Source: Alistipes sp.
GTDB taxonomy: Bacteria; Bacteroidota; Bacteroidia; Bacteroidales; Rikenellaceae
Direction of reading: 5' to 3'
Assembly: GCA_017624955.1 (NCBI GenBank)
Contig: JAGAMA010000025.1
Span: forward strand, 1-64,000
DNA: 64,000 nucleotides
Shown: in pieces, positions 6,684-59,703 of the stretch
Position numbering within the stretch: the first letter of the stretch is position 1
Layout: each line of letters begins with the position of its first letter
Notes under the pieces: model-generated
The model's input: only the letters and a program-made list of their open reading frames with translations
Database searches by the model: none
What the model was told of the DNA's origin: nothing
Program-made: the position numbers and the translations under genes

Positions 6684-7046
6684 ATGTCACTGAACAAGAT
6701 AGAGAGAAGAGAGCGCATCAAGATGCGCATCCGTAAGATCGTAAACGGTACGGCCGCACAGCCCCGCATGACGGTGTTCCGTAGCAACAAGCAGATCTAC
6801 GTACAGTTCATCGACGACCTGGCAGGTGTAACGCTCGCACAGGCTTCTTCGCTCGAGAAGGAGGTTGTAGAGGCCGCTGCCGGTAAGAATAAGTCGGAGG
6901 TAGCCGCCCTGGTGGGTAAGTTGGCTGCCGAGCGTGCTGCCGCCAAGGGCATCACGACGGTATCGTTCGACCGTAACGGTTACCTGTATCACGGAAGAGT
7001 TAAACAGCTGGCCGAAGCAGCACGCGAAGGCGGACTTAAATTCTAA
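6684..7046 (+). CDS. rplR: Ribosomal protein L18 (uL18)
   Basis: L18, 120 residues, one of the 5S rRNA-binding proteins. It has the basic N-terminus ([18 protein letters not shown]) and the C-terminal [27 protein letters not shown] that is highly conserved. Order rplF-rplR-rpsE is standard and the spacing is 8 bases to rpsE. Confidence 0.98.
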
Positions 7047-7054
7047 GCAAAATT

Positions 7055-7570
7055 ATGGCTAACAGCAATATGAAAGTACGCACCAGCGACCTCGAGCTTA
7101 AGGACAGACTCGTAAGCATTCAGCGCGTTACGAAGGTAACGAAGGGTGGTCGCACGTTCAGCTTCTCGGCAATCGTCGTTGTAGGTAACGAGAACGGCGT
7201 AGTCGGTTATGGTCTGGGTAAGGCTTCGGAGGTTCAGGCAGCCATCGCCAAGGGCGTAGAGGATGCCAAGAAGAACCTGGTGAAGATCCCCGTAATCAAC
7301 GGTACGATTCCCCACAAGCAGGAGTTCCGCTTTGGTGGTTCGGAGGTGATGATCCGTCCGGCCGCTCCGGGTACCGGTATTATCGCCGGTGGTGCTATGC
7401 GTGCCGTTCTGGAGTCGCTCGGCGTAAAGAACGTGCTCGCAAAGAGCAAGGGCTCGTCGAACCCCCACAACCTCGTTAAGGCCACGGTAGGCGCTCTGTG
7501 CGAGCTGCGTGATGCAGCCAGCGTTGCACGCCTGCGCGGTATCTCGATGAATCAGGTGTTTAACGGTTAA
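7055..7570 (+). CDS. rpsE: Ribosomal protein S5 (uS5)
   Basis: S5, 171 residues, involved in mRNA entry and translational fidelity. The N-terminal double-stranded RNA-binding-like domain ([22 protein letters not shown]) is followed by the S5 C-terminal domain with [20 protein letters not shown]. It ends two or fifteen bases before rpmD depending on the start chosen there. Confidence 0.98.
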
Positions 7571-13338: not shown

Positions 13339-13902
13339 ATGAGACATAACAAAAACTTTAACCACCTCGGTCGCCAGGCAGGTCACCGCAAGGCGCTGAT
13401 GTCGAACATGGCATCGTCGCTGATCCTGCACAAGCGTATCGAGACCACGGTTGCCAAGGCCAAGGCCCTGCGTCAGTTCGTTGAGCCCCTGGTAACCAAG
13501 TCGAAGGAGGATACCACCCACTCGCGTCGTGTTGTATTCTCGTACCTGAAGCAGAAGGAGGCCGTTACGGAGTTGTTCCGCACGATCGCCCCGAAGATTG
13601 CTGAGCGCAACGGCGGTTACACGCGTATCCTGAAGACGGGCTTCCGTCTGGGTGACGCTGCCGAGATGTGCATCATCGAGTTCGTTGATTTCAACGAGGC
13701 CTACACGCTGGGTGTTACGCCGGCCGCTGCTGCTGCCGAGGCTAAGCCCAAGACGCGTCGTTCGCGCTCGAAGAAGACGACGGATGCCGTTGAGGATGCT
13801 ACCGTAGTGGAGAAGAAGGCTGCTCCGAAGGCTGCCCCGAAGGCTGCTAAGGCTTCGGCTCCGAAGGTGGCTAAGAAGACCAACGTGGGTAAGAAGATGT
13901 AA
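13339..13902 (+). CDS. rplQ: Ribosomal protein L17 (bL17) with a long Ala/Lys tail
   Basis: L17, 187 residues. The first 125 residues are the conserved domain ([20 protein letters not shown] and the [20 protein letters not shown] block). The remaining 60 are a low-complexity tail rich in Ala, Lys and Pro with repeated [10 protein letters not shown]-type units, absent in E. coli L17 (127 residues) but common in Bacteroidetes. It closes the ribosomal cluster; a palindromic repeat and two terminators follow. Confidence 0.97.
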
Positions 13903-13916
13903 TTTTCGCCTTTGCC

Positions 13917-14015
13917 TGGTTGGCTATTTTGGCGTTTCCCTCGCGACAAAATTGCTCACATACGTCAGTATGCTCCGCATTTTGTCACTTCGGGGGCCTA
14001 AAAATAGCTCAACCA
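13917..14015. repeat. Long palindromic repeat, variable-stem family, copy 1
   Basis: An imperfect palindrome just downstream of rplQ. The outer arms TGGTTGGCTATTTTGGC (13917-13933) and 13996-14015 are complementary apart from two small bulges. The inner arms GACAAAAT (13945-13952) and ATTTTGTC (13979-13986) are perfect. The apex is CATAC-GTCA-GTATG (13959-13972) flanked by CTCA and CTCCGC. The apex resembles the copies at 53295 and 59564, while both stems have unrelated sequence. Confidence 0.75.
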
Positions 14016-14040
14016 TCCAAACGCTTATATTGCATTTCAT

Positions 14041-14072
14041 AAAAACGAGATCCGAACGGGTCTCGTTTTTTG
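14041..14072 (+). terminator. Terminator of the rplQ transcript
   Basis: Arms ACGAGATCC and GGGTCTCGT around a GAAC loop, then a run of T; a run of A precedes it, so it may also work on the other strand. Confidence 0.85.
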
Positions 14073-14093: not shown

Positions 14094-14126
14094 GGGTGCT
14101 CTTAGCACCCCAAGCCTTGAAATCCC
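14094..14126. repeat. Small hairpin and fragment of the palindromic repeat family
   Basis: GGGTGCT-CTT-AGCACCC at 14094-14110 is followed by CAAGCCTTGAAATCCC (14111-14126), a 16-base match to 59651-59666 in copy 3. It looks like the right-hand arm of a decayed copy. Confidence 0.5.
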
Positions 14127-14147
14127 CACCTCATACGAAATTCCTAT

Positions 14148-14180
14148 AAAAACGGGACCTTTCGGGGTCCCGTTTTTTTT
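14148..14180 (+). terminator. Second terminator, upstream of the hydrolase gene
   Basis: Arms ACGGGACC and GGTCCCGT around TTTCGG-type loop bases, preceded by A and followed by eight T. Together with the terminator at 14041 it isolates the next gene from ribosomal transcription. Confidence 0.85.
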
Positions 14181-14192
14181 GTGTCATTTCTT

Positions 14193-34995: not shown

Positions 34996-35169
34996 TCAAG
35001 TTACAAAACGGAAGAATTGTGCAGGGGCTTTCCTTTTCTCGCTCCCCCCCCTAACTGCCTTTTCCTCCTTGAGTGGAACGCAACCTTTACCGCTCCTGCC
35101 TCCTAAGCAGCACCTTTGGGGTCTCTTCTGCTTTGATGCTTGGCCCGTACACCTGCAGGCGTTTCATCT

Positions 35170-35340
35170 TTTTGTAGGCAGGTCTTCTGACTTATTCCCC
35201 TTTGATGCGCCTTCCCGGTTTCCCAGTGGCAGAAAGCATCAAACTTTGCGGAAATTACAGCAACAGGTATTGTTTCGGATTCTCACCGAATTTCCTTTTC
35301 ACCCCTCGGCCGTCTCGACGGCTTTCGGAGAACCTTACAA
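35170..35340 (-). promoter_or_regulatory. Cobalamin riboswitch
   Basis: On the minus strand the aptamer shows the B12 box GCCACTG (35224-35230) and the conserved AAGTCAGAAGACCTGCC (35177-35193), in the right order and spacing, with CCGAAAGCCG-type stem sequence near the 5' end. It lies between a promoter at 35344-35374 and the btuG terminator hairpin, so high B12 should switch off the uptake operon. Confidence 0.93.
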
Positions 35341-35343
35341 GCA

Positions 35344-35374
35344 CAAAGGTAGGGATTATAATTGAAAGTCCAAA
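35344..35374 (-). promoter_or_regulatory. Promoter of the btu operon
   Basis: On the minus strand TTTG (35371-35374) and TACCTTTG (35344-35351), spacer 19. The predicted start falls at the 5' edge of the riboswitch aptamer. The remaining sequence up to 35441 shows nothing else. Confidence 0.8.
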
Positions 35375-35520: not shown

Positions 35521-38500
35521 CTAAAGCTTAAACTCCACATGCTTGATGCGGCGACGACGCCAGGTGTAGGTCGTGTGGATCGTGCCATCCTCGGCCTCGA
35601 TCACCGCGGGGTAGGAGTATTGGCCGACAGGGCTATCCTCCAGCGTGATCACATGCTTCCAGTTCGTGCCATCCTCCGACACAGCCACCGAGAGGGGCGT
35701 GCGGGGGCCCTTCGGCGTGCCGTCCAGGGTCTCGAAGTTGTTGTAAACCAACACATGGCGACCGTCACGCAGCGTCACGGCATCGATGCCCGACTGCGTG
35801 TGCTCCAAATCCATCAGCGTCAGCTTGGTCCACGTCTCGCCGCGATCCGACGAGTAGGCGATACCCGTCTTGCCGTTGCGCGTGCGGCACATCATCTGCA
35901 GGCGACCATCCTTGAGTTTGAGGATCGTGGGCTGAATCGCCTCGATCGGCAGCGCCTTCGACTGATCGTAGGGTTTCGTGCCCACCTCTGCCTTGGTCGT
36001 TACCGCGGGGCGGAAACGGGTCGGCACATTCAGCTCGGCATCGAGCGGCTCGGTGCGGTGCCACGTCTTGCCCAGGTCATCCGTCCACTCAAAGTGGGCG
36101 CTCCAGCGACCCAGCTCGTCCGACGAGGGGCAGAGGATGCGACCATCCACCCATACGGGCTTATTCTTAATTGCACCAAAGATGCCGTCGGGCAGCTGCT
36201 CGGGCTTCGACCAGCTCTTGCCACCATTCTTCGAACGGATCAGGTAGCCCTTCCAGCTCGGTACATTGGGACCTACCTTGTAGAAGAGCCACAACTCGCC
36301 ACCCTTCACAGGCACCTGGTAGAGTACCGGATTCCAGCAGGCGTAGCGCAGCGTGTCGTTCTGGATGCCGTCAGCCACCAGCTTCGGCTCCGACCAGCGA
36401 TCGCTTCCCTTCTTCTTCGTCTGTGTCCAGATGCAGACATCAGGGTTACGCTCCTTCGTACCACCGAAGTAGGCGGCAATCAGGTCGCCATTCGGCAGCT
36501 CCTCGATCGTCGAGGCGTGGCACTCGATAAAGGGGGCCTGCTCGTAGAGGAATTCATCGCGCGTGATGCCGGCACGCTCCTCGCCGTGGGCGGGATCGAG
36601 CGGAATCGAAAGGTGGTATTTGCCCGAAGGCAGACGCCATACGCCGCAGCCATTCTCCTCGCCTACGAAGCGTACGCCCTCCTCCGATACGGCCTTGGGG
36701 TTGAGGGTCGGCAGCACGATCGTAGCCGTGGTGTTGCACGGAATCTCCAGATCCCACTCCAGGAGCATCGGGCTCTTGCGGTAGCTGCTGCGGATTGTGC
36801 CGTGCAGCGACTCATACGAGGCCGATACACGCTCCAGGTTCTGGATCGAGAGGTCGGGCTGGAAGCGGATCTCCTTGTAACCGGGCTTGGCGGGGTTGAT
36901 ACCGGCCAGGTCGCGGTAGAACCAGGGGATCAGGTCGCCCAGCATCATGACGTGGTTGCCCGAGTTCATCTTCGGGCTTGCCGTATCGCCGTTCCACAGC
37001 TCCCAGATGGTCGTCGCACCGCGCGAAGCCATGTAGCCGAAGCTGGGGTAGGACTGCTGTGAGGCGAGCAGATAGGCCACATCGCCGCGACCCATCTTGG
37101 TCAGGTAGCGCAGTGTCCAGTTCTGGCCTGCGACACCACTGCTGATGTGGCCGCCGTTATCGACTAACAGTTTTTTCAGGATCTGCTTCTCGACGTTGGC
37201 ACGATGCTCCTCGGGAACCAGGTCGAAGGCTACGGCCAAGAGGTTGGCCGTCACGGTGTTGTTGTCGTAATAGACTGCATCGGGATAGAGCAGGTGGTCG
37301 TAGCGCGTGGGTGCCTTGCCCTCCTCGACGTGCAGGAAGTGGCGGTTGAAGGCCGCTTTAGTCTTCTCGGCACGGGCGGCATACTCTTCGCGGTCAGCCG
37401 ACTCGCCCAGCAGGGTGGCGAACTTAACCATCATCTTCGACACCATGCTGTAGTAGGCCGTGGCGATGAGGGTCGTATTCGTTACGCGCAGGGGATCCTG
37501 GCTGTGGATCAGCTCCAACGACTCGGGCGGTACGCACCAGTCGCCGTACTTCTCCTTCGTGACGAGGCCATCCTCGGTCATGTAGCACTCCTGCATGTGG
37601 TCCAGCCAGCGCTTCATCGTGTTGTAGTTGCGCTTCAGCGGCTCGATGTTACCCGTCTGCTCGTAGAGCATTTCGCAGATGATCGGCAGCACCGACTGCC
37701 AAACCATGCCGTCCGTGTAGTAGTTCCAGAAGGCGGGTACCACATCGGGAATGCAACCGTCGGCACGCTGTGCCTCGGTGATATCCTCCATCCACTTGGC
37801 GTACATCGTGCCGCTGTCGAACATGAAGCTTTCGCCCCACGTTCCGACGGCGTGGTCACCCAGCCACGGCTGGCGCTCGTTGCGCTGCGGGCAGTCGAGC
37901 GGCATACCCTTGTAGTTGGAGTTCAGACCCCACCAGGCGTTGCGATAGACCGTGTTGATCACATCGTTCGAGCACTCGAACTGACCGACGGTCGGCATGT
38001 TGTCGTAGATTACCTCGGCCTCGAAGTCCTCCACCGTGGGGTTCTTCAGACCCGTGATCTCGATGTAGCGGAAGCCGTGGTAGGAGAAGCGGGCGCTCCA
38101 CTTCGTGTTTTGCTCCTTGCCGTTGGCGATGTAGATGTCGCGGCTCCAGGCATCGCGCAGATTGGCCGTGTAGAGCGAATCACCGCCGTTGGTGAGGCGC
38201 TCGGCATAGCGCATGAGGATCGTATCGCCCTTCTCCGTGTCGCGCACGTTGAGCTTCACCCAGCCGGCCATGTTCTGCCCGAAATCGACAATCGTGCGAC
38301 CCTCGTAGTGGGTCACCGACTTGGCCGCCAGGCGCTGCATGATCTTCATGTTGGGCGAAATAGCACCGCGCAGCGTACCATAGGGCAGCGCTACACGCTG
38401 CGAGAGGAGCCACTTCGAATCGTCGTAGCCCACCTTCGTCCAGTCGCCCAGCTCCAGTCGCGCATCGTAGATCTCGCCGTCGTACTCGTTGTTGCTGCGG

Positions 38501-51191: not shown

Positions 51192-53294
51192 ATGATACGA
51201 CGAATTTTAGGAATGTTGATGGTTGCCGCCTTCGTGCTGGCAGCCCTCCCGACGACGGCCCAGGAGGCCTCGACGGCCGGCCTTACCGACATGCGTAAGA
51301 GCCGCTATGCAAAGATGGCCAATGTGCCCCTGGGTGCCGTGCGCTGGACGGGCGGTTTCTGGGGTGAGCGCTTCGAGGTGTACAGCAAGACCTCGGTGCA
51401 GCACATGTGGAAAATCTGGCAGGCCCCCGAGATTTCGCACGGCTTCCGCAACTTCGAGATTGCGGCCGGAACGTGCGACGGTCACCACTCGGGTCCCCCG
51501 TTCCACGACGGCGACATGTACAAGTGGATGGAGGGCGTAGCGGCTGTCTATGCCATCACGAAAGACCCCGAGCTGGATCAAATTATGGATACCTTCATCG
51601 AGCAGGTTGTCAAGGCACAGCGCGAGGATGGTTACATTCATACGCCCGTCATTATCGACGAGCGCAACAAGGGTATCGACACCCACAGCAACCAGCCGCA
51701 GCAGGCCATCGGTACGAAGGTGGGCGGTGCGGACGAGAAGGGCGCTTTTGCCAACCGTCTGAACTTCGAGACCTACAACCTGGGTCACCTGATGATGGCC
51801 GGTATCACGCACTACCGTGCCACGGGTAAGCGCACCCTCTTCGAGGCCGCCATCAAGGCCACGGATTTCCTCTGCCACTTCTACGAGACGGCCTCGGCCG
51901 AGTTGGCCCGCAACGCCATCTGCCCCTCGCACTATATGGGCGTGACGGAGATGTATCGCGCTACGGGTAACCCCCGCTACCTGGCCTTGGCCAAGAACCT
52001 GATCGACATCCGCGGTATGGTCGAGAACGGTACGGACGATAATCAGGACCGAGTGCCCTTCCGTGAGCAGTACAACGCCATGGGTCACTCGGTGCGCGCC
52101 AACTACCTCTATGCCGGTGTGGCCGATGTCTATGCCGAGACCGGCGAGGAGCAGCTGATGAAGAACCTGACGAGCATCTGGAAGGATATCGTGACGCGCA
52201 AGATGTATGTTACGGGTGCTTGCGGTGCCCTCTACGACGGCACCTCGCCCGACGGTACGGTCTATGATCCCGACCTGATTCAGAAGGTGCACCAGAGCTA
52301 CGGCCGCCCCTACCAGCTGCCGCAATCGACCGCCCACAACGAGACCTGCGCCAACATCGGTAACATGCTCTTCAACTGGCGCATGCTGCAATCGACGGGC
52401 GAGGCAAAGTATGCCGAGATTGTCGAGACGGCTCTCTACAACAGTGTCTTGAGCGGTGTGAGCCTCGATGGTAAGCACTACTTCTACACCAACCCCCTGC
52501 GCCTGAGCCACGACCTGCCCTATACGCTGCGCTGGTCGAAGATCCGCGAGGAGTATATCTCGCTCTGCAACTGCTGTCCGCCCAATACGCTGCGCACGAT
52601 TTGCGAGGCACAGAACTACGCCTACACCATGTCCGAGGATGCCCTCTGGTGCAACCTTTATGGCGAGAGTGAGTTGACGACAACCTATGCCGGTAAGCCC
52701 TTTGTGGTGAAGCAGAAGACGGGTTACCCCTACGACGGTAAGATCCTGCTGGAGGTGGCCGAGGTGGCCAAGAAGAGCCCGATGAAACTCTATCTCCGCA
52801 TCCCCGAGTGGTGCGACAACGCTACGGTAAAGGTAAACGGCAAGCCGATCAACCTCGCCACGAAGGCCAACACCTACGCCTGCGTAGAGCGCACCTGGAA
52901 GAGGGGCGACAAGGTGGAGCTGGATCTTGAGATGCGTGTGAAGCTCCTCGAGTCGAATCCGCTGGTGGAGGAGAGTCGCAACGAGACCGTCGTAAAGCGC
53001 GGTCCGCTGGTTTACTGCCTTGAGAGCTGCGACATCGAGGGTGGCAAGAAGATCGACAACGTGCTGATTCCGAGCAATATCAACTTTGAGGCCGTGCCCT
53101 ATGAAATCGAGGGTTCGAAGATGATTGCCCTGGAGGGTACGGCTCGTCTGATCGACGAGAAGTCGTGGGAGAACACCCTCTACCGCGAGGTGGGCAAGGC
53201 TGACGGCGAGGTGAAGATTCGCCTGATCCCCTACTTCGCCTGGGGTAACCGCGACCACTCGGAGATGACCGTGTGGATGCCTCTGGCCCGCTAA
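51192..53294 (+). CDS. GH127 glycosidase (aceric acid hydrolase or beta-L-arabinofuranosidase type)
   Basis: A 700-residue exported protein (signal peptide about 23 residues) of the GH127/DUF1680 family, an alpha/alpha barrel followed by beta-sandwiches. The zinc and catalytic residues of GH127 are visible: Glu384 and Cys386 in HNETCANIG, and Cys461-Cys462 in NCCPPNTLR, with the nucleophile expected among these cysteines. In RG-II degradation by B. thetaiotaomicron the GH127 enzyme BT1003 releases aceric acid from chain B; other GH127 members release beta-L-arabinofuranose. The RG-II setting favours the first. Head gene of the plus-strand operon. Confidence 0.88.
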   Translation: MIRRILGMLMVAAFVLAALPTTAQEASTAGLTDMRKSRYAKMANVPLGAVRWTGGFWGERFEVYSKTSVQHMWKIWQAPEISHGFRNFEIAAGTCDGHHSGPPFHDGDMYKWMEGVAAVYAITKDPELDQIMDTFIEQVVKAQREDGYIHTPVIIDERNKGIDTHSNQPQQAIGTKVGGADEKGAFANRLNFETYNLGHLMMAGITHYRATGKRTLFEAAIKATDFLCHFYETASAELARNAICPSHYMGVTEMYRATGNPRYLALAKNLIDIRGMVENGTDDNQDRVPFREQYNAMGHSVRANYLYAGVADVYAETGEEQLMKNLTSIWKDIVTRKMYVTGACGALYDGTSPDGTVYDPDLIQKVHQSYGRPYQLPQSTAHNETCANIGNMLFNWRMLQSTGEAKYAEIVETALYNSVLSGVSLDGKHYFYTNPLRLSHDLPYTLRWSKIREEYISLCNCCPPNTLRTICEAQNYAYTMSEDALWCNLYGESELTTTYAGKPFVVKQKTGYPYDGKILLEVAEVAKKSPMKLYLRIPEWCDNATVKVNGKPINLATKANTYACVERTWKRGDKVELDLEMRVKLLESNPLVEESRNETVVKRGPLVYCLESCDIEGGKKIDNVLIPSNINFEAVPYEIEGSKMIALEGTARLIDEKSWENTLYREVGKADGEVKIRLIPYFAWGNRDHSEMTVWMPLAR

Positions 53295-53415
53295 AAATCC
53301 GTCTGATGGGCTGATGCTGCGTTACGCTTGTGCCCGAAATCCTCACATACGCTTTCGTATGCTGCGGTTTCGGGCACATCGCAAGCCTTGCACAAGCCGC
53401 ATCATGCGAATTTTT
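53295..53415. repeat. Long palindromic repeat, variable-stem family, copy 2
   Basis: An imperfect palindrome that begins at the GH127 stop. Outer arms AAAAATCCGTCTGATGGG and its partner near 53398-53415 pair well. The conserved internal segments CTGCGTTACGCT and CGCAAGCCTTG follow, then perfect inner arms GTGCCCGAAA (53330-53339) and TTTCGGGCAC (53368-53377), then the apex CATACG-CTTT-CGTATG (53346-53361). The 8-base CCGCTAAA, holding the gene's stop codon, is repeated at 53288 and 53430. Confidence 0.8.
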
Positions 53416-53457: not shown

Positions 53458-54816
53458 ATGAGTACGACAAAAAGCTCTTTGAAGAGTACCCTTGCGGTAT
53501 CTCTGACCAACTACCTCGATGCCGGTGCCATCGTGGCCGGTGCCAGCGGATTGACCCTTTGGCAGTCCTACCTCGGCCTCACGGAGGGTCACCTTGGCTG
53601 GCTGAACGCCATCTCGGCCAACTGCCTCGGTGCCGCCATCGGTGCCATCATCGGCGGTTTCCTGGCCGATAAGTATGGCCGCAAGATGATCTACACCTAC
53701 AACATGCTGATCTACATGGTGGGTGTGGCCCTGGTGATGTGTTCGGTGAACTTCCCGATGCTGCTCCTCGGCTTCCTTGTGACGGGTATCTCGGTCGGTG
53801 TCGGTGTCCCTGCATCGTGGACCTATATTTCGGAGAATTCGGAGGTAAATAACCGTGGCCGCAACATCGCCATTTCGCAGATGGCTTGGGGTATCGGCCC
53901 GCTCATGATCCTGATTCTCGGCACGTTGCTTGCTCCTGCCGTGGGCGAGTCGTCGGGAGGTCTTTTGTATGGCCTGACGGAGTGGGTCGGCGGTTGGTTC
54001 GGCGTGGAGGGTGCAGCCCTGCATGTCTTCTCCTCGCGCATCGTATTTGCTTCGCTCTTCATCGTGGCCTTTATCGCCTGGAATCTGCAGCGCAAGTTGG
54101 ATGAGTCGGCCGAGTGGAAGGCCGCCAAGGCCGAGGCCGAGAAGGCCCCTTCGGCAGGCAGTGTCTTCTCGTCGTTTGGCAAACTCTTCACGAACAAAAC
54201 GAATATCTACACGATGCTGTTCCTGGCCGGTATGTATCTGACCTGGAACCTTGTATGCTCGGTGATGGGCTTCTTCCAGCCCCACATCTACGAGACGGCG
54301 GGCGGTCTTTCGAACGAGCACGCCAACCTCTTGGCTGCCGGCCAGTGGGTGGTGATCATCTTCACAACCTTCATCTTCTCGCTCATCGTCGATAAGGTGA
54401 ACCAGCGCTGGTTGTACGCCGTGGGTGTGAGCTTCGGCGTGTTGGCCTGGGTGATTGTGATCTTCCTCGGCATCAACAGCCTCTCGGGCCTTCTCTTCTT
54501 CACCCTGCTGTGGGGTCTGCAGGCCGGTATCTCGGTGCAGTCGTTCTATGCCCTGTGGGCTTCGGAGCTCTTCCCCGCCAAGTATCGTGCCGCCGCACAA
54601 GGCGTGATGTTCTTCATCGTGCGCGGTCTTTCGGCTGTGTGGGGTCTGGTCTTTGTCTACATCTACGGCAACGAGGGTCAGGGCTTTACCCTGGCCGCTA
54701 CGATCATGCTCGTCTTCTTCGTCATCTCGCTCCTGATCGGTACGATCGGTGCACCGGTGACGCGTGGTAAAACCCTGGAACAAATCACCCGTGAGCGTTA
54801 TGGCGATGACTTCTAA
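53458..54816 (+). CDS. MFS sugar transporter
   Basis: A 452-residue inner-membrane transporter with twelve hydrophobic helices. The motif between helices 2 and 3 is GGFLADKYGRKMIY, and the C-terminal PVTRGKTLEQITRERYG resembles the sugar-porter ending PETKGRTLEEI. There is no signal peptide. The next gene overlaps its end by 17 bases, so the transporter and the cytosolic GH78 are translationally linked and probably handle the same imported sugar. Likely cargo is a mono- or disaccharide from RG-II; which one cannot be told. Confidence 0.9.
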   Translation: MSTTKSSLKSTLAVSLTNYLDAGAIVAGASGLTLWQSYLGLTEGHLGWLNAISANCLGAAIGAIIGGFLADKYGRKMIYTYNMLIYMVGVALVMCSVNFPMLLLGFLVTGISVGVGVPASWTYISENSEVNNRGRNIAISQMAWGIGPLMILILGTLLAPAVGESSGGLLYGLTEWVGGWFGVEGAALHVFSSRIVFASLFIVAFIAWNLQRKLDESAEWKAAKAEAEKAPSAGSVFSSFGKLFTNKTNIYTMLFLAGMYLTWNLVCSVMGFFQPHIYETAGGLSNEHANLLAAGQWVVIIFTTFIFSLIVDKVNQRWLYAVGVSFGVLAWVIVIFLGINSLSGLLFFTLLWGLQAGISVQSFYALWASELFPAKYRAAAQGVMFFIVRGLSAVWGLVFVYIYGNEGQGFTLAATIMLVFFVISLLIGTIGAPVTRGKTLEQITRERYGDDF

Positions 54817-56902: not shown

Positions 56903-59563
56903 ATGAAACATTGCAAGACGATCTTTTGGGCGCTGCTGGCTGCCGTGATGATGACCGCCTGCGCCAAACCGATTGTAAAAATCACGCTGCCCGAGAACCC
57001 CTCGGAGCAGACCCTCTTTGCCGCCGAGCACCTGACGGAGGCTCTGGAGGCCCACGGCTATGTCGTAGCCGAGGAGGCCGATCAGGCAATCACGCTTCAG
57101 CTGGGTGCCGAGGGGCTGAAGAAGGAGGGTTTCCGCATCGAGAACGACGGTAAGACGATCTCGGTGACGGGTCACGATGCGAACGGCCTGCTCTATGGCT
57201 GCCGTGAGCTGATCGACCGCCTGGAGGCCGAGGGCAAGCTCAACGCCCCCGAGCTGATGGAGGATGCCCCCGAGATGGTGCTGCGCGGAACATGTATCGG
57301 TGTGCAGAAGACCTACTACCTGCCCGGTCGCACGGTCTATGAGTACCCCTACACGCCCGAGAGCTTCCCCTGGTTCTACGATAAGGAGCTGTGGATCAAG
57401 TACCTCGATATGCTCGTGAAGAACCGCATGAACTCGGTTTATCTCTGGAACGGCCACCCCTTTGCTTCGCTCGTGAAGCTCGATGATTACCCCTTCGCCG
57501 TGGAGGTGGACGACGAGACCTTCCGCAAGAACGAGGAGATGTTCTCGTTCCTGACGCACGAGGCCTCGAAGCGCGGTATCTTCGTGATTCAGATGTTCTA
57601 CAACATCCTGCTGTCGAAACCCTTTGCCGAGCACTACGGCATGAAGACGCAGGATCGCAACCGCCCGATTACGCCCCTGGTGGCCGACTACACGCGCAAG
57701 AGCATCACGGCCTTCGTGGCCAAGTACCCCAACGTGGGTCTGTTGTGCTGCCTGGGCGAGGCGATGGCTACGCACGAGGACGATGTGGAGTGGTTTACGA
57801 AGGTCGTCCTGCCCGGTGTGAAGGATGGTTTGAAGGAGATTGGTCGCACGGATGAGCCTCCCGTATTGCTGCGTGCCCACGACACGAATTGCCAGATGGT
57901 GATGGATGCCGCGCTGCCGATCTACAAGAACCTCTACACGATGCACAAGTACACCGGCGAGTCGCTGACGACCTACACCCCCGGTGGTCCGTGGGGTCAG
58001 ATTCACAAGGATCTGTCGGCGCTTGGCTCGACCCACATTTCGAATGTTCACATCCTGGCCAACCTGGAGCCTTTCCGTTGGTCGTCGCCCGACTTTACGC
58101 AGAAGACCGTGCAGGCGATGCACGACGTACACGGCGCAAACGCCCTGCACCTCTATCCGCAGGCTTCGTATTGGGATTGGCCCTACACGGCCGACAAGAC
58201 GGCTGATGGCGAGCGCCTTATGCAGCTCGACCGCGATTGGGCCTGGTATGAGCAGTGGGGTCGCTACGCCTGGAATTGCCGCCGCGACCGTGCCGAGGAG
58301 ATCGCCTATTGGGATAAGACCTTCGGCGAGAAGTTTGGCGTAAGCCCGAAGCAGGGCGCTGCCATCCGCGAGGCCTTCGAGGAGGCGGGTGAGATTGCCC
58401 CCAAGACGTTGCGCCGCTTCGGTATCACGGAGGGTAACCGCCAGACCCTCTTGCTGGGTATGTTCATGAGCCAGCTGGTCAATCCCTATAAATATACGGT
58501 CTATCCGGGCTTCTACGAGAGTTGCGGCCCTGCAGGTGAGAAGCTCATCGAGTGGGTGGAGAAGGAGTGGAAAAAGCAGCCCCATGTCGAGAATGGCGAG
58601 TTCCCGCTCGATATCGTGGAGCAGTGCATTGCCCACGGCGATAAGGCTGTAGCCGCCATCGACCGCGTGAAGCCCCGCATGAACAAGGAGGAGTTCGCCC
58701 GCGTGAAGAACGACATCTACTGCTACCGCGCCTTCGCCTACGCCTTCTATTGGAAGGTCAAGGCGGCTCGTGAGGTGCTGAACTACCAGTGGAGTAAGGA
58801 GATTCACTACCTCGACGAGGCAGTGCCCCTGTTGGAGAAGAGCCTCGAGTGGTATCGCACGCTGGTCGATCTGACGAAGGATAGCTACCTCTATGCCAAC
58901 AGTATGCAGACCCAGCAGCGCCGCATCCCGATCAGTGGTGCCGATGGTAAGAATAAGACCTGGGAGGAGCTGCTGCCCCACTACGAGCAGGAGTATGAGG
59001 CGCTGAAGGCCAATATCGAGTTGCTCAAAAACAGCGATCAGAGCGCCGAGGTGGAGATTACGCCCGCGACGAATGCCGAGGTCAGTCTCAAGGGTAGCTG
59101 GCAGCGTGTCAGCTTCGCGGAGGGTATCTCGCCCTTCGTGGATCGCAAGGAGCTCACGGTGGAGGCGCTGGCTCCCGAGCTGAAGGGGTTGAAGGGCTTT
59201 GTCTTCGACGGCGAGAAGAAGCGCTCGGAGGCTACGACCTTCAACTTTAGCTGCACGAAGCCCGTGAAGCTCCTGGTGGGCTACTTCAAGGGCGACAACA
59301 AGCGCTTCGCGCAGGCTCCGAAGCTCGAGATCGATGCCTCGGCCAACGACTATGGCCAGGCCGAGCCGCTGCTGCAGAATGCCGTGGCGGTGAAGAATTG
59401 GGGTGTGGCCAACATCCACGCCTACCACTTCGAGGCGGGTGAGCACTCGCTGACTCTGCCGCGTGGCTTCCTGCTCGTGGCCGGCTTTACGGCGGACGAT
59501 GTGAAGGGCCGCAATGTAGGTTTGGCTGGTGCGGATGATACGCCCGACTGGTTATTCTACTAG
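56903..59563 (+). CDS. GH138-like lipoprotein (putative RG-II alpha-galacturonidase)
   Basis: An 886-residue lipoprotein (lipobox MTAC, Cys20). Residues about 25-110 form a GH20b/GH67-type N-terminal domain (EQTLFAAEHLTEALEAHGYV, GLLYGCRELIDRL). A TIM barrel follows (about 120-480), with KNRMNSVYLWNGHPF, CCLGEAMATHED and LLRAHDTNCQMV as acidic candidate regions. Then come helices and a C-terminal beta-sandwich. In B. thetaiotaomicron the gene next to the GH137-GH2 enzyme BT0996 is BT0997, the founding GH138 alpha-galacturonidase; the same adjacency here is my main reason. Confidence in the exact family is moderate. Confidence 0.68.
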   Translation: MKHCKTIFWALLAAVMMTACAKPIVKITLPENPSEQTLFAAEHLTEALEAHGYVVAEEADQAITLQLGAEGLKKEGFRIENDGKTISVTGHDANGLLYGCRELIDRLEAEGKLNAPELMEDAPEMVLRGTCIGVQKTYYLPGRTVYEYPYTPESFPWFYDKELWIKYLDMLVKNRMNSVYLWNGHPFASLVKLDDYPFAVEVDDETFRKNEEMFSFLTHEASKRGIFVIQMFYNILLSKPFAEHYGMKTQDRNRPITPLVADYTRKSITAFVAKYPNVGLLCCLGEAMATHEDDVEWFTKVVLPGVKDGLKEIGRTDEPPVLLRAHDTNCQMVMDAALPIYKNLYTMHKYTGESLTTYTPGGPWGQIHKDLSALGSTHISNVHILANLEPFRWSSPDFTQKTVQAMHDVHGANALHLYPQASYWDWPYTADKTADGERLMQLDRDWAWYEQWGRYAWNCRRDRAEEIAYWDKTFGEKFGVSPKQGAAIREAFEEAGEIAPKTLRRFGITEGNRQTLLLGMFMSQLVNPYKYTVYPGFYESCGPAGEKLIEWVEKEWKKQPHVENGEFPLDIVEQCIAHGDKAVAAIDRVKPRMNKEEFARVKNDIYCYRAFAYAFYWKVKAAREVLNYQWSKEIHYLDEAVPLLEKSLEWYRTLVDLTKDSYLYANSMQTQQRRIPISGADGKNKTWEELLPHYEQEYEALKANIELLKNSDQSAEVEITPATNAEVSLKGSWQRVSFAEGISPFVDRKELTVEALAPELKGLKGFVFDGEKKRSEATTFNFSCTKPVKLLVGYFKGDNKRFAQAPKLEIDASANDYGQAEPLLQNAVAVKNWGVANIHAYHFEAGEHSLTLPRGFLLVAGFTADDVKGRNVGLAGADDTPDWLFY

Positions 59564-59703
59564 AAAGTGCCTAACAAGGTGATTTCTGCGTTACGCTGGC
59601 GTGAGAAATCCTCACATACGCTTTAGTATGCTGCGGTTTCTCACGCTGCGCAAGCCTTGAAATCCCGCTTGTTATCCACTTTCATCATCCTTGTTAGCAT
59701 GAA
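59564..59703. repeat. Long palindromic repeat, variable-stem family, copy 3
   Basis: An imperfect palindrome that begins right after the preceding stop codon. Outer arms GAAAGTG-CC-TAACAAG-GT-GATTT and the partner around 59659-59681 pair over about 20 bases. Conserved internal segments CTGCGTTACGCT and CGCAAGCCTTG follow, then inner arms CGTGAGAAA (59600-59608) and TTTCTCACG (59637-59645), then the apex CATAC/GTATG (59615-59630). It is flanked by a 10-base direct repeat ATTCTACTAG (59554-59563 and 59704-59713), the first copy containing the stop codon. Confidence 0.8.

Follow-up and report, generated by a model that had tools for sequence, protein, structure and literature searches.

A dispersed family of nested palindromes with covarying stems and conserved loops behind stop codons in Alistipes

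What kind of element is a long palindrome whose stems differ from copy to copy while its loops stay the same? The question is raised by a 64,000-nucleotide stretch of an Alistipes genome (hereafter the window, meaning the whole stretch), in which an initial annotation, made from the letters alone, had reported three such palindromes. A check of the sequence found all three where they had been placed, and each folded better than every one of 200 shuffled versions (cf. Table 1). As had been claimed, the apex CTCACATAC..GTATGCTSCG was common to the three copies, and the loops CTGCGTTACGC and CGCAAGCCTTG were found in copies 2 and 3. The nested plan was borne out too, though with four to five stem layers in place of the two described, and the placement of the outer stem had to be corrected, its start being the stop codon itself or a few bases away. 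Read from the stop codon, the element consists of the outer stem, a small internal loop, the second and third stems, the loop TGCGTTACGC or a variant of it, the inner stem, the loop TCA, the CATAC/GTATG apex with its short loop, CTSC, and then the right-hand arms that pair with the left ones, with GCAAGCCTT among them; at the stem base, A is frequently abundant on the left side and T on the right. The gene before copy 1 is rplQ-like, and copies 2 and 3 each separate two genes of the same strand in operons of carbohydrate type, the gene names coming from a reading of the proteins. To the earlier description of copy 1 can be added its surroundings, where two ordinary terminators and the right half of another element were detected.

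Table 1. Features of the three window copies and of the region 3′ of copy 1
Feature	Position	Strand	Evidence or partner
Copy 3, entire nested palindrome	59562..59684	+	R1 match 122.5 bits, E 9e-31 (in training set); fold z -6.56
TAG stop codon of upstream gene, abutting outer stem of copy 3	59561..59563	+	Sequence
Copy 3, outermost stem, left arm AAAGTG	59564..59569	+	Partner CACTTT 59677-59682; sequence and fold
Copy 3, stem 2, TAACAAG	59572..59578	+	Partner CTTGTTA 59668-59674; sequence and fold
Copy 3, stem 3, GATTTC	59581..59586	+	Partner GAAATC 59659-59664; sequence and fold
Copy 3, conserved left loop TGCGTTACGC	59587..59596	+	Alignments
Copy 3, inner stem GCGTGAGAAA	59599..59608	+	Partner TTTCTCACGC 59637-59646; sequence and fold
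Copy 3, apex stem-loop CATAC..GTATG, between TCA and CTGC	59615..59630	+	Alignment
Copy 3, conserved right loop GCGCAAGCCTT	59648..59658	+	Alignments
Copy 2, entire palindrome, between genes 51192-53294 and 53458-54816	53293..53415	+	R1 match 104.4 bits (training set); fold z -6.09
Copy 1, entire palindrome, behind rplQ-like gene 13339-13902	13906..14026	+	R1 match 103.2 bits (training set); fold z -6.11
Ordinary terminator hairpin 3′ of copy 1	14041..14071	+	Inverted repeat, then T run
Small hairpin GGGTGCTCTTAGCACC, before right-half relics at two sites	14094..14109	+	Sequence comparison
Relic, right half of an element whose complete form stands here in G033 and G020	14110..14144	+	95% match to the right half of that element (42 nt)
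Second terminator, resembling one 3′ of the complete element in G033/G020	14149..14182	+	Sequence

Family size and covariation

The pattern TCACATACN{2,12}GTATGCT matched the 2.1-Mb genome of origin at 34 places, while its reversed control gave none. An alignment and a covariance model (R1) were built from 29 of these copies, the remaining five, which belong to a second subfamily and have different loops, being left out. Run as the initial annotation had suggested, on this genome and on others of the genus, the model revealed a genome-wide family: it matched 44 places in the genome of origin at E ≤ 0.1 (the weakest at 5.5e-4; 29 of them the training copies), three of them in the window, and at least one place in 45 of the 61 genus genomes, own included, with at least 58 in the richest, these per-genome counts being lower bounds. 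No match was obtained in 16 of the 61 genomes, some of them with a completeness of 98-99%. In a 28-taxon tree (28 of 30 rplQ loci, i.e. 28 of the 61 genomes), the seven genomes with one copy or none required three changes versus a mean of 6.5 with shuffled labels; presence therefore follows clades, and vertical inheritance contributes to it. The later sets, amounting to 290 elements, were collected with the apex pattern, allowing at most one change per half; they miss other subfamilies, and neither elements of sister genomes nor pairs sharing a genome are independent.

The covariation that had been claimed was confirmed on the 29 aligned copies of one genome, with a score of 0.380 against 0.137 ± 0.009 in shuffles (none of 500 as high) and at most 0.127 with slid partners. 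Changes on both sides were found in 31 of 47 pairs, and 84.4% of the paired cells held a pair, compared with 32-44% when partners were slid by one to three columns; as the structure was derived from the same 29 sequences, it is favored over the slid versions. RNAalifold, left unaided, returned 31 pairs, 21 of them with changes on both sides. The apex stem was invariant in 29 of 29 copies, which is partly by construction because this and the later sets were gathered through the apex pattern. Pattern counts, R1 matches, and covariation thus gave many copies with differing yet pairing stems, and not any of the three outcomes that the initial annotation had held against its proposal, namely just three copies, a common stem sequence, or stems that do not pair.

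Variants of the plan were also noted. The second subfamily of the genome of origin (L001, L006, L009, L010, and L034), which lies outside the model, has the loops TATGCGGCA and GGTCACATAC/GTATGCTCCC. A third carries the apex CATAG/CTATG in place of CATAC/GTATG (L075 near 610 on the minus strand, L093 near 583 on the plus strand), which shows paired variation in the apex stem as well. Two elements in tandem, with a spacing of about 122 bases, were seen at L136 (2846 and 2968) and at L147 (5515 and 5636), and one pair in opposite orientation, 40 bases apart, in G033 (C16, 37781-37902 on the plus and 37943-38064 on the minus strand).

The description of the stems as "freely varying" holds as far as they covary; it needs to be qualified in that groups of copies share stems, that stems change slowly in place, and that whole elements are also replaced. 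Stems common to groups of copies exceeded what was found in column-shuffled rows (e.g. the inner GAAATCC/GGTTTC), and just one clear case of stem-layer exchange between copies of the same genome was detected among 562 within-genome pairs of 67 elements. In a comparison of orthologous sites in four genomes (G000, G020, G024, and G033), 38 pairs held nearly the same element (85-100% identity) and 36 held unlike elements (58-76%), despite flanks up to 98% identical. Among the 38 same-element pairs, 86 of 3028 stem letters differed (2.8%), as did 75 of 1014 letters in internal loops, 33 of 191 in apical loops, and none of 449 in the apex stem (again partly by construction), while the next 60 bases downstream were 75% identical, i.e. 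about 25% different. The stems at a given site thus evolve slowly; high identity could also follow from recent interspecies exchange, but this alone would not spare the stems. Of the pairs that had changed in these orthologs, 37 were broken, 21 stayed paired through a one-sided change, and 11 had changed on both sides and were still paired; the corresponding numbers for 56 pairs of near-identical copies were 149, 51, and 12. Single changes in near-identical copies look neutral, which speaks against strong selection on every copy, and the paired changes could reflect templating by hairpin repair, not selection.

Related motifs were sought more widely with a 20-letter apex pattern, scanned over contigs of 84,980 species, for which one to two chance matches are expected by a hand estimate that does not serve as a test. 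It matched records titled Alistipes, Rikenellaceae, Tidjanibacter, and Bacteroidales, and, among the 80 of 114 stretches listed, at least eight others (Rickettsia, Rickettsiella, four Deltaproteobacteria, Desulfobacter, and Syntrophaceae), most of them showing the nested plan by eye. A looser pattern matched 46 of 395 genomes of the phylum: the own genome, 37 of one family of another class (f19), and eight others with one or two matches each. Because the reversed control matched 29 genomes once each, single matches of the looser pattern are at chance level; genomes of the same class gave one match and those of the same order none. The family f19, with two genera and up to 66 copies per genome, is presumably Chlorobiaceae, judging by such repeats; most of the ten elements viewed had CTGCGTT or a similar sequence and CCTTGC at the loop positions. 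A motif of similar plan was also present on three contigs labeled as viral in IMG/VR (L419, L420, and L421), with a sense frame ending between -8 and +15 of the base in each.

Dispersal, replacement, and half-element relics

Whole units were found dispersed in one genome, G048, where nine loci at different sites carry an identical core of about 105 bases with a sharp left end. Three of these sites were compared with relatives (13 of 18 loci gave sequence; the five that gave none were all for L081), and what the relatives had there was ordinary sequence at a gene end, mostly a plain hairpin terminator by eye. A second small hairpin 3′ of the G048 copies may be a terminator carried along. Empty orthologous sites were likewise found for window copy 3 (in G033, G008, and G038) and, in at least one relative, for four further copies of the genome of origin (L010, L014, L020, and L028), the joined flanks coming from nine of 11 prepared sites and a further joined-flank comparison from seven of nine. 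For L002 and L007, the relative held a left-half remnant at the orthologous site. Left-half remnants, such as GCCTAACAAGGCTCTTTTGGCATC, were noted for the downstream flanks of L002 and L007 and at L342 and L359; an ordinary hairpin resembling a terminator follows directly on those of L007 and L359. We considered whether the target always serves as the template for the outermost stem. By eye, this fits the empty sites of L010 and L020, where one outer-stem arm looks pre-existing; it was rejected since it fails in G048, where the outer stem is common to the copies apart from a C/T change.

Partial elements were found next to complete ones. Within 350 bases downstream, a same-strand right half was detected for 25 of 111 elements (the scan covering 111 of 112), a left half for three, and a further complete copy for two, whereas upstream a match of any kind was found for two elements and in windows farther upstream for none. 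In all 25 relics, the matched part started between positions 2 and 30 of about 60, at or to the right of the center. The best match was an unlike element, found complete at the corresponding site of a sister species, in 13 cases, the element's own type in eight, and neither in four. At the rplQ site, one element (X) is complete in G000 and another (Y) is present as a right half, while in G033 and G020 Y is complete and X is the right half; in G024, X is followed by half of Y and this in turn by half of X. The elements at this site in other species (L101, L104, L103, and L106) share the outer stem AAATCGATTTTAAG and differ in their inner parts, and in some relatives a T run stands behind the inner stem, as if the element doubled as a terminator. 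The small hairpin GGGTGCTCTTAGCACC was considered as a general feature and dismissed, as among the loci compared it occurs (with up to two mismatches) at 15 distinct places, which belong to the rplQ and L032 sites and one further contig, L196.

Docking behind stop codons and the better-folding strand

Among the 258 of 290 elements with enough flank, a long open frame in the sense direction ended near the outer stem (from -120 to +12 relative to it) in 189, and in 135 of these within -10 to +4. Docking in G048 is looser than in the family overall, many copies lying from 6 to more than 40 nt 3′ of the stop. At 29 motif places in other lineages and on viral contigs, judged from frames of 100 codons or more, some of which are noise, a sense stop was found within -20 to +15 in 13 and a convergent stop within 20 in five; in f19, docking was not one-sided, with a sense stop within 20 nt at three of ten loci and a convergent one at three of ten. 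Five T near the 3′ end were present in 47 of 277 elements (the 277 coming from the 290) and five A near the 5′ end in the same number; this equality, together with a sense strand that folds worse, the reverse of terminator controls, speaks against intrinsic terminators.

The strand preference was tested by folding energy on 201 non-redundant elements of the 290. The antisense strand gave the more stable fold in 189 of the 201 with DNA parameters (12 opposite) and in 176 with RNA parameters (22 opposite), whereas with RNA parameters the sense strand was the stronger one in 33 of 44 control terminator hairpins taken from the same flanks and in 176 of 260 random upstream windows. When wobble pairs were disallowed in the folding of helices, sense-strand single mismatches were mostly C.T, T.C, and A.C, those of the types G.T, G.A, and A.G being rare; in the stem columns, there were 94 A.C, 12 G.T, and 199 others. 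Sense A.C and C.T/T.C become G.T and G.A on the antisense strand and so are better tolerated there. Mutation skew does not explain this bias, because neither recent single changes at orthologous sites (A.C 34, G.T 27) nor downstream flanks (A/G 380, C/T 450) are skewed in that way. At 26 places of other lineages, some of them interrelated and three on viral contigs, the antisense strand folded better in 25 with DNA and in 20 with RNA parameters; as A.C and G.T were equal there (8 each), the mismatch signal rests on C.T/T.C (40) versus G.A/A.G (0). The initial annotation had raised the question of whether the elements act as RNA; for the message strand this is not supported, mismatch tolerance and folding energy favoring the opposite strand instead.

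These findings led us to favor, still tentatively and at somewhat less than even confidence, a non-coding element that is mobile and dispersed and that works through its folded bottom strand, most likely as single-stranded DNA, with loops read by a protein and stems free in sequence. According to this proposal, the bottom strand, i.e. the complement of the upstream message, would fold, most likely as single-stranded DNA; a putative protein would read the conserved unpaired loops, which are purine-rich on that strand, while the stems could take any pairing sequence. The element would settle directly behind stop codons, mostly in gene orientation, and it would move by recombination on the folded strand. 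The relics could arise in three steps: (i) the long palindrome breaks at its center, (ii) the gene-side end is repaired by copying the gene together with a complete element from a sister chromosome or from another strain's allele, and (iii) the repaired end and the right half that remains are joined. Of the new facts, the most telling are the preference for bottom-strand folding and the half-element relics. Against the proposal stand the lack of a qualifying mover among the three enzyme families sought (see below) and the absence of a clear shortage of broken pairs among recent single changes (37 versus 21 in the orthologs, 149 versus 51 in the near pairs).

The strand signal would be no different if the folded molecule were an antisense RNA instead of single-stranded DNA; such an RNA could act either as a barrier to antisense transcription entering the gene or as the 3′ end of a convergent message. 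We regard this as unlikely. It would suit the better folding of the antisense strand, the frequent A-rich left and T-rich right sides of the stem base, and the convergent stop found within 120 nt in 79 of 258 elements; however, these convergent stops are spread out and not docked, and 179 of the 258 elements have none that near. Moreover, the Bacteroidetes -7 promoter motif, TANNTTTG, was not enriched toward the element (11 of 277 versus 11 in shuffles). Given the preference for the bottom-strand fold and this absence of antisense promoter enrichment, folded single-stranded DNA is favored over antisense RNA.

We give little credence to a scheme without any dedicated mobility, in which copying of one arm from the other during replication or repair keeps the pairing and homologous recombination in flanking genes exchanges the palindromes. 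Several observations agree with it: the paired double changes (11 in the 38 ortholog pairs, 12 in the 56 near pairs), L172 and L177 of one assembly, which differ by two adjacent compensated pairs of the second stem and one further base, the arms at L010 and L020 that seem older than the element, and groupings of the four species that conflict among the listed sites L011, L032, and L029, as expected from allele exchange or repeated replacement. Yet both the conserved loops in unrelated bacteria and the nine identical-core copies at different sites of G048 need dispersal of whole units.

A structure in the 3′ UTR of the sense mRNA, protecting or processing the message, is improbable. Such roles have been described for REP elements, and the position directly behind stops, often before terminators, the gene orientation, the slow change of stems, and the location of copies 2 and 3 between genes of one strand all suit it; but the sense strand folds worse and carries the destabilizing A.C and C.T mismatches, and the terminator controls behave in the reverse way.

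In its broadest form, the reading based on folded single-stranded DNA would describe a class of integrase-less folding sites extending across phyla, which dock behind stop codons, are recognized by shape and loop letters alone, are spread among genes and lineages by a putative enzyme, and turn over through center breakage into downstream arrays of half-elements. We put this forward as a possible generalization that is less likely than not. A dispersed design of this sort, with neither an integron integrase nor a Y1 transposase and often with no reverse transcriptase, would point to a factor able to recognize strands in folded form at the ends of genes. The annotation of 3′ gene ends in these gut bacteria would change as well, among others for the end of the rpoA-rplQ region and for sugar-use operons.

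Known systems and their enzymes

Three enzyme families were sought with profiles in the 61 genus genomes as candidate movers, and none qualified. The Y1 transposase (PF01797) was found in none of the 61, while five of 14 control genomes were positive; the integron integrase (TIGR02249) had no match above cut-off in the 61, weaker matches being present in all 61 and in 13 of 14 controls. Reverse transcriptase (PF00078) was detected in 20 of the 61 genomes and absent from 41, and none was found in the copy-rich G000, G001, G005, G048, and G056 (assemblies 85-96% complete), so an encoded reverse transcriptase was rejected as the spreader. Since these enzymes are absent or not required, the elements are not explained by REP/RAYT, IS200/IS605, integrons, or an encoded reverse transcriptase. 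A search of the window against Rfam gave a single match, a cobalamin riboswitch at 35160-35353 on the minus strand (94.6 bits). Seven element-bearing loci gave six matches at E ≤ 2, of which a tRNA alone exceeded its gathering score; at L172, three matches to miRNA models (6893-7029) lie beside the element at about 7061-7194. The open-licence literature yielded no named family for these palindromes, and the listed matches to motif letters were unrelated. The family is apparently unnamed and undescribed, and the statement of the initial annotation that it knew of no such family holds against Rfam and this literature. PMC8040213, which deals with structured RNAs of human microbiomes and includes 250 palindromic candidates, could hold a member in its supplementary tables.

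The design is closest to that of integron attC sites. These lie behind a stop codon in gene orientation, and their end boxes R″ and R′ read RYYYAAC/GTTRRRY. The attC sites are described as imperfect palindromes of poor sequence conservation with unpaired features and a bottom-strand preference (PMC2727003; PMC6393395), the R boxes being named in the first of these. The elements resemble attC sites in their place behind the stop codon, gene orientation, variable stems, conserved unpaired features, and better folding of the bottom strand (189 of 201); they differ in having no R-box heptamers, dispersed copies in place of cassette arrays, four to five stem layers, and loops conserved as sequence. 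By inspection, no columns are conserved in the manner of R boxes; columns 14-17 with 113-116, for example, showed three to five pair types each. Thus, the elements are attC-like in design, yet attC's defining tests failed: left-over attC sites of a lost integron are contradicted on two defining features, and we judge this origin very improbable.

REPs share sequence among themselves and accompany Y1 transposases. PMC3733652, on GTAG/CGTC REPs, gives their length as 20-40 bp and states that GTAG REPs frequently provide a TAG stop codon. Like REP/RAYT (TnpA-REP) systems, the elements are dispersed extragenic palindromes beside gene ends, but the lack of PF01797 (0 of 61) and stems not common to copies (31 of 47 pairs changed on both sides; some groups share single stems) contradict a REP/RAYT or IS200/IS605-type origin, which we consider hardly credible.

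Two further groups of repeats invite comparison. Rickettsia palindromic elements (RPEs) are also long hairpin repeats, and Rickettsia is the title of one record with a motif match (L146). They differ in being known for insertion within coding genes, a distinction drawn from the description of RPEs. MITEs, RUP, and BOX-type repeats are likewise short, dispersed, non-coding, and intergenic. Their copies share sequence and terminal repeats, whereas here the stems differ from copy to copy and no target duplication was identified. To our knowledge, the combination of free stems with fixed loops is familiar mainly from attC sites and structured RNAs.
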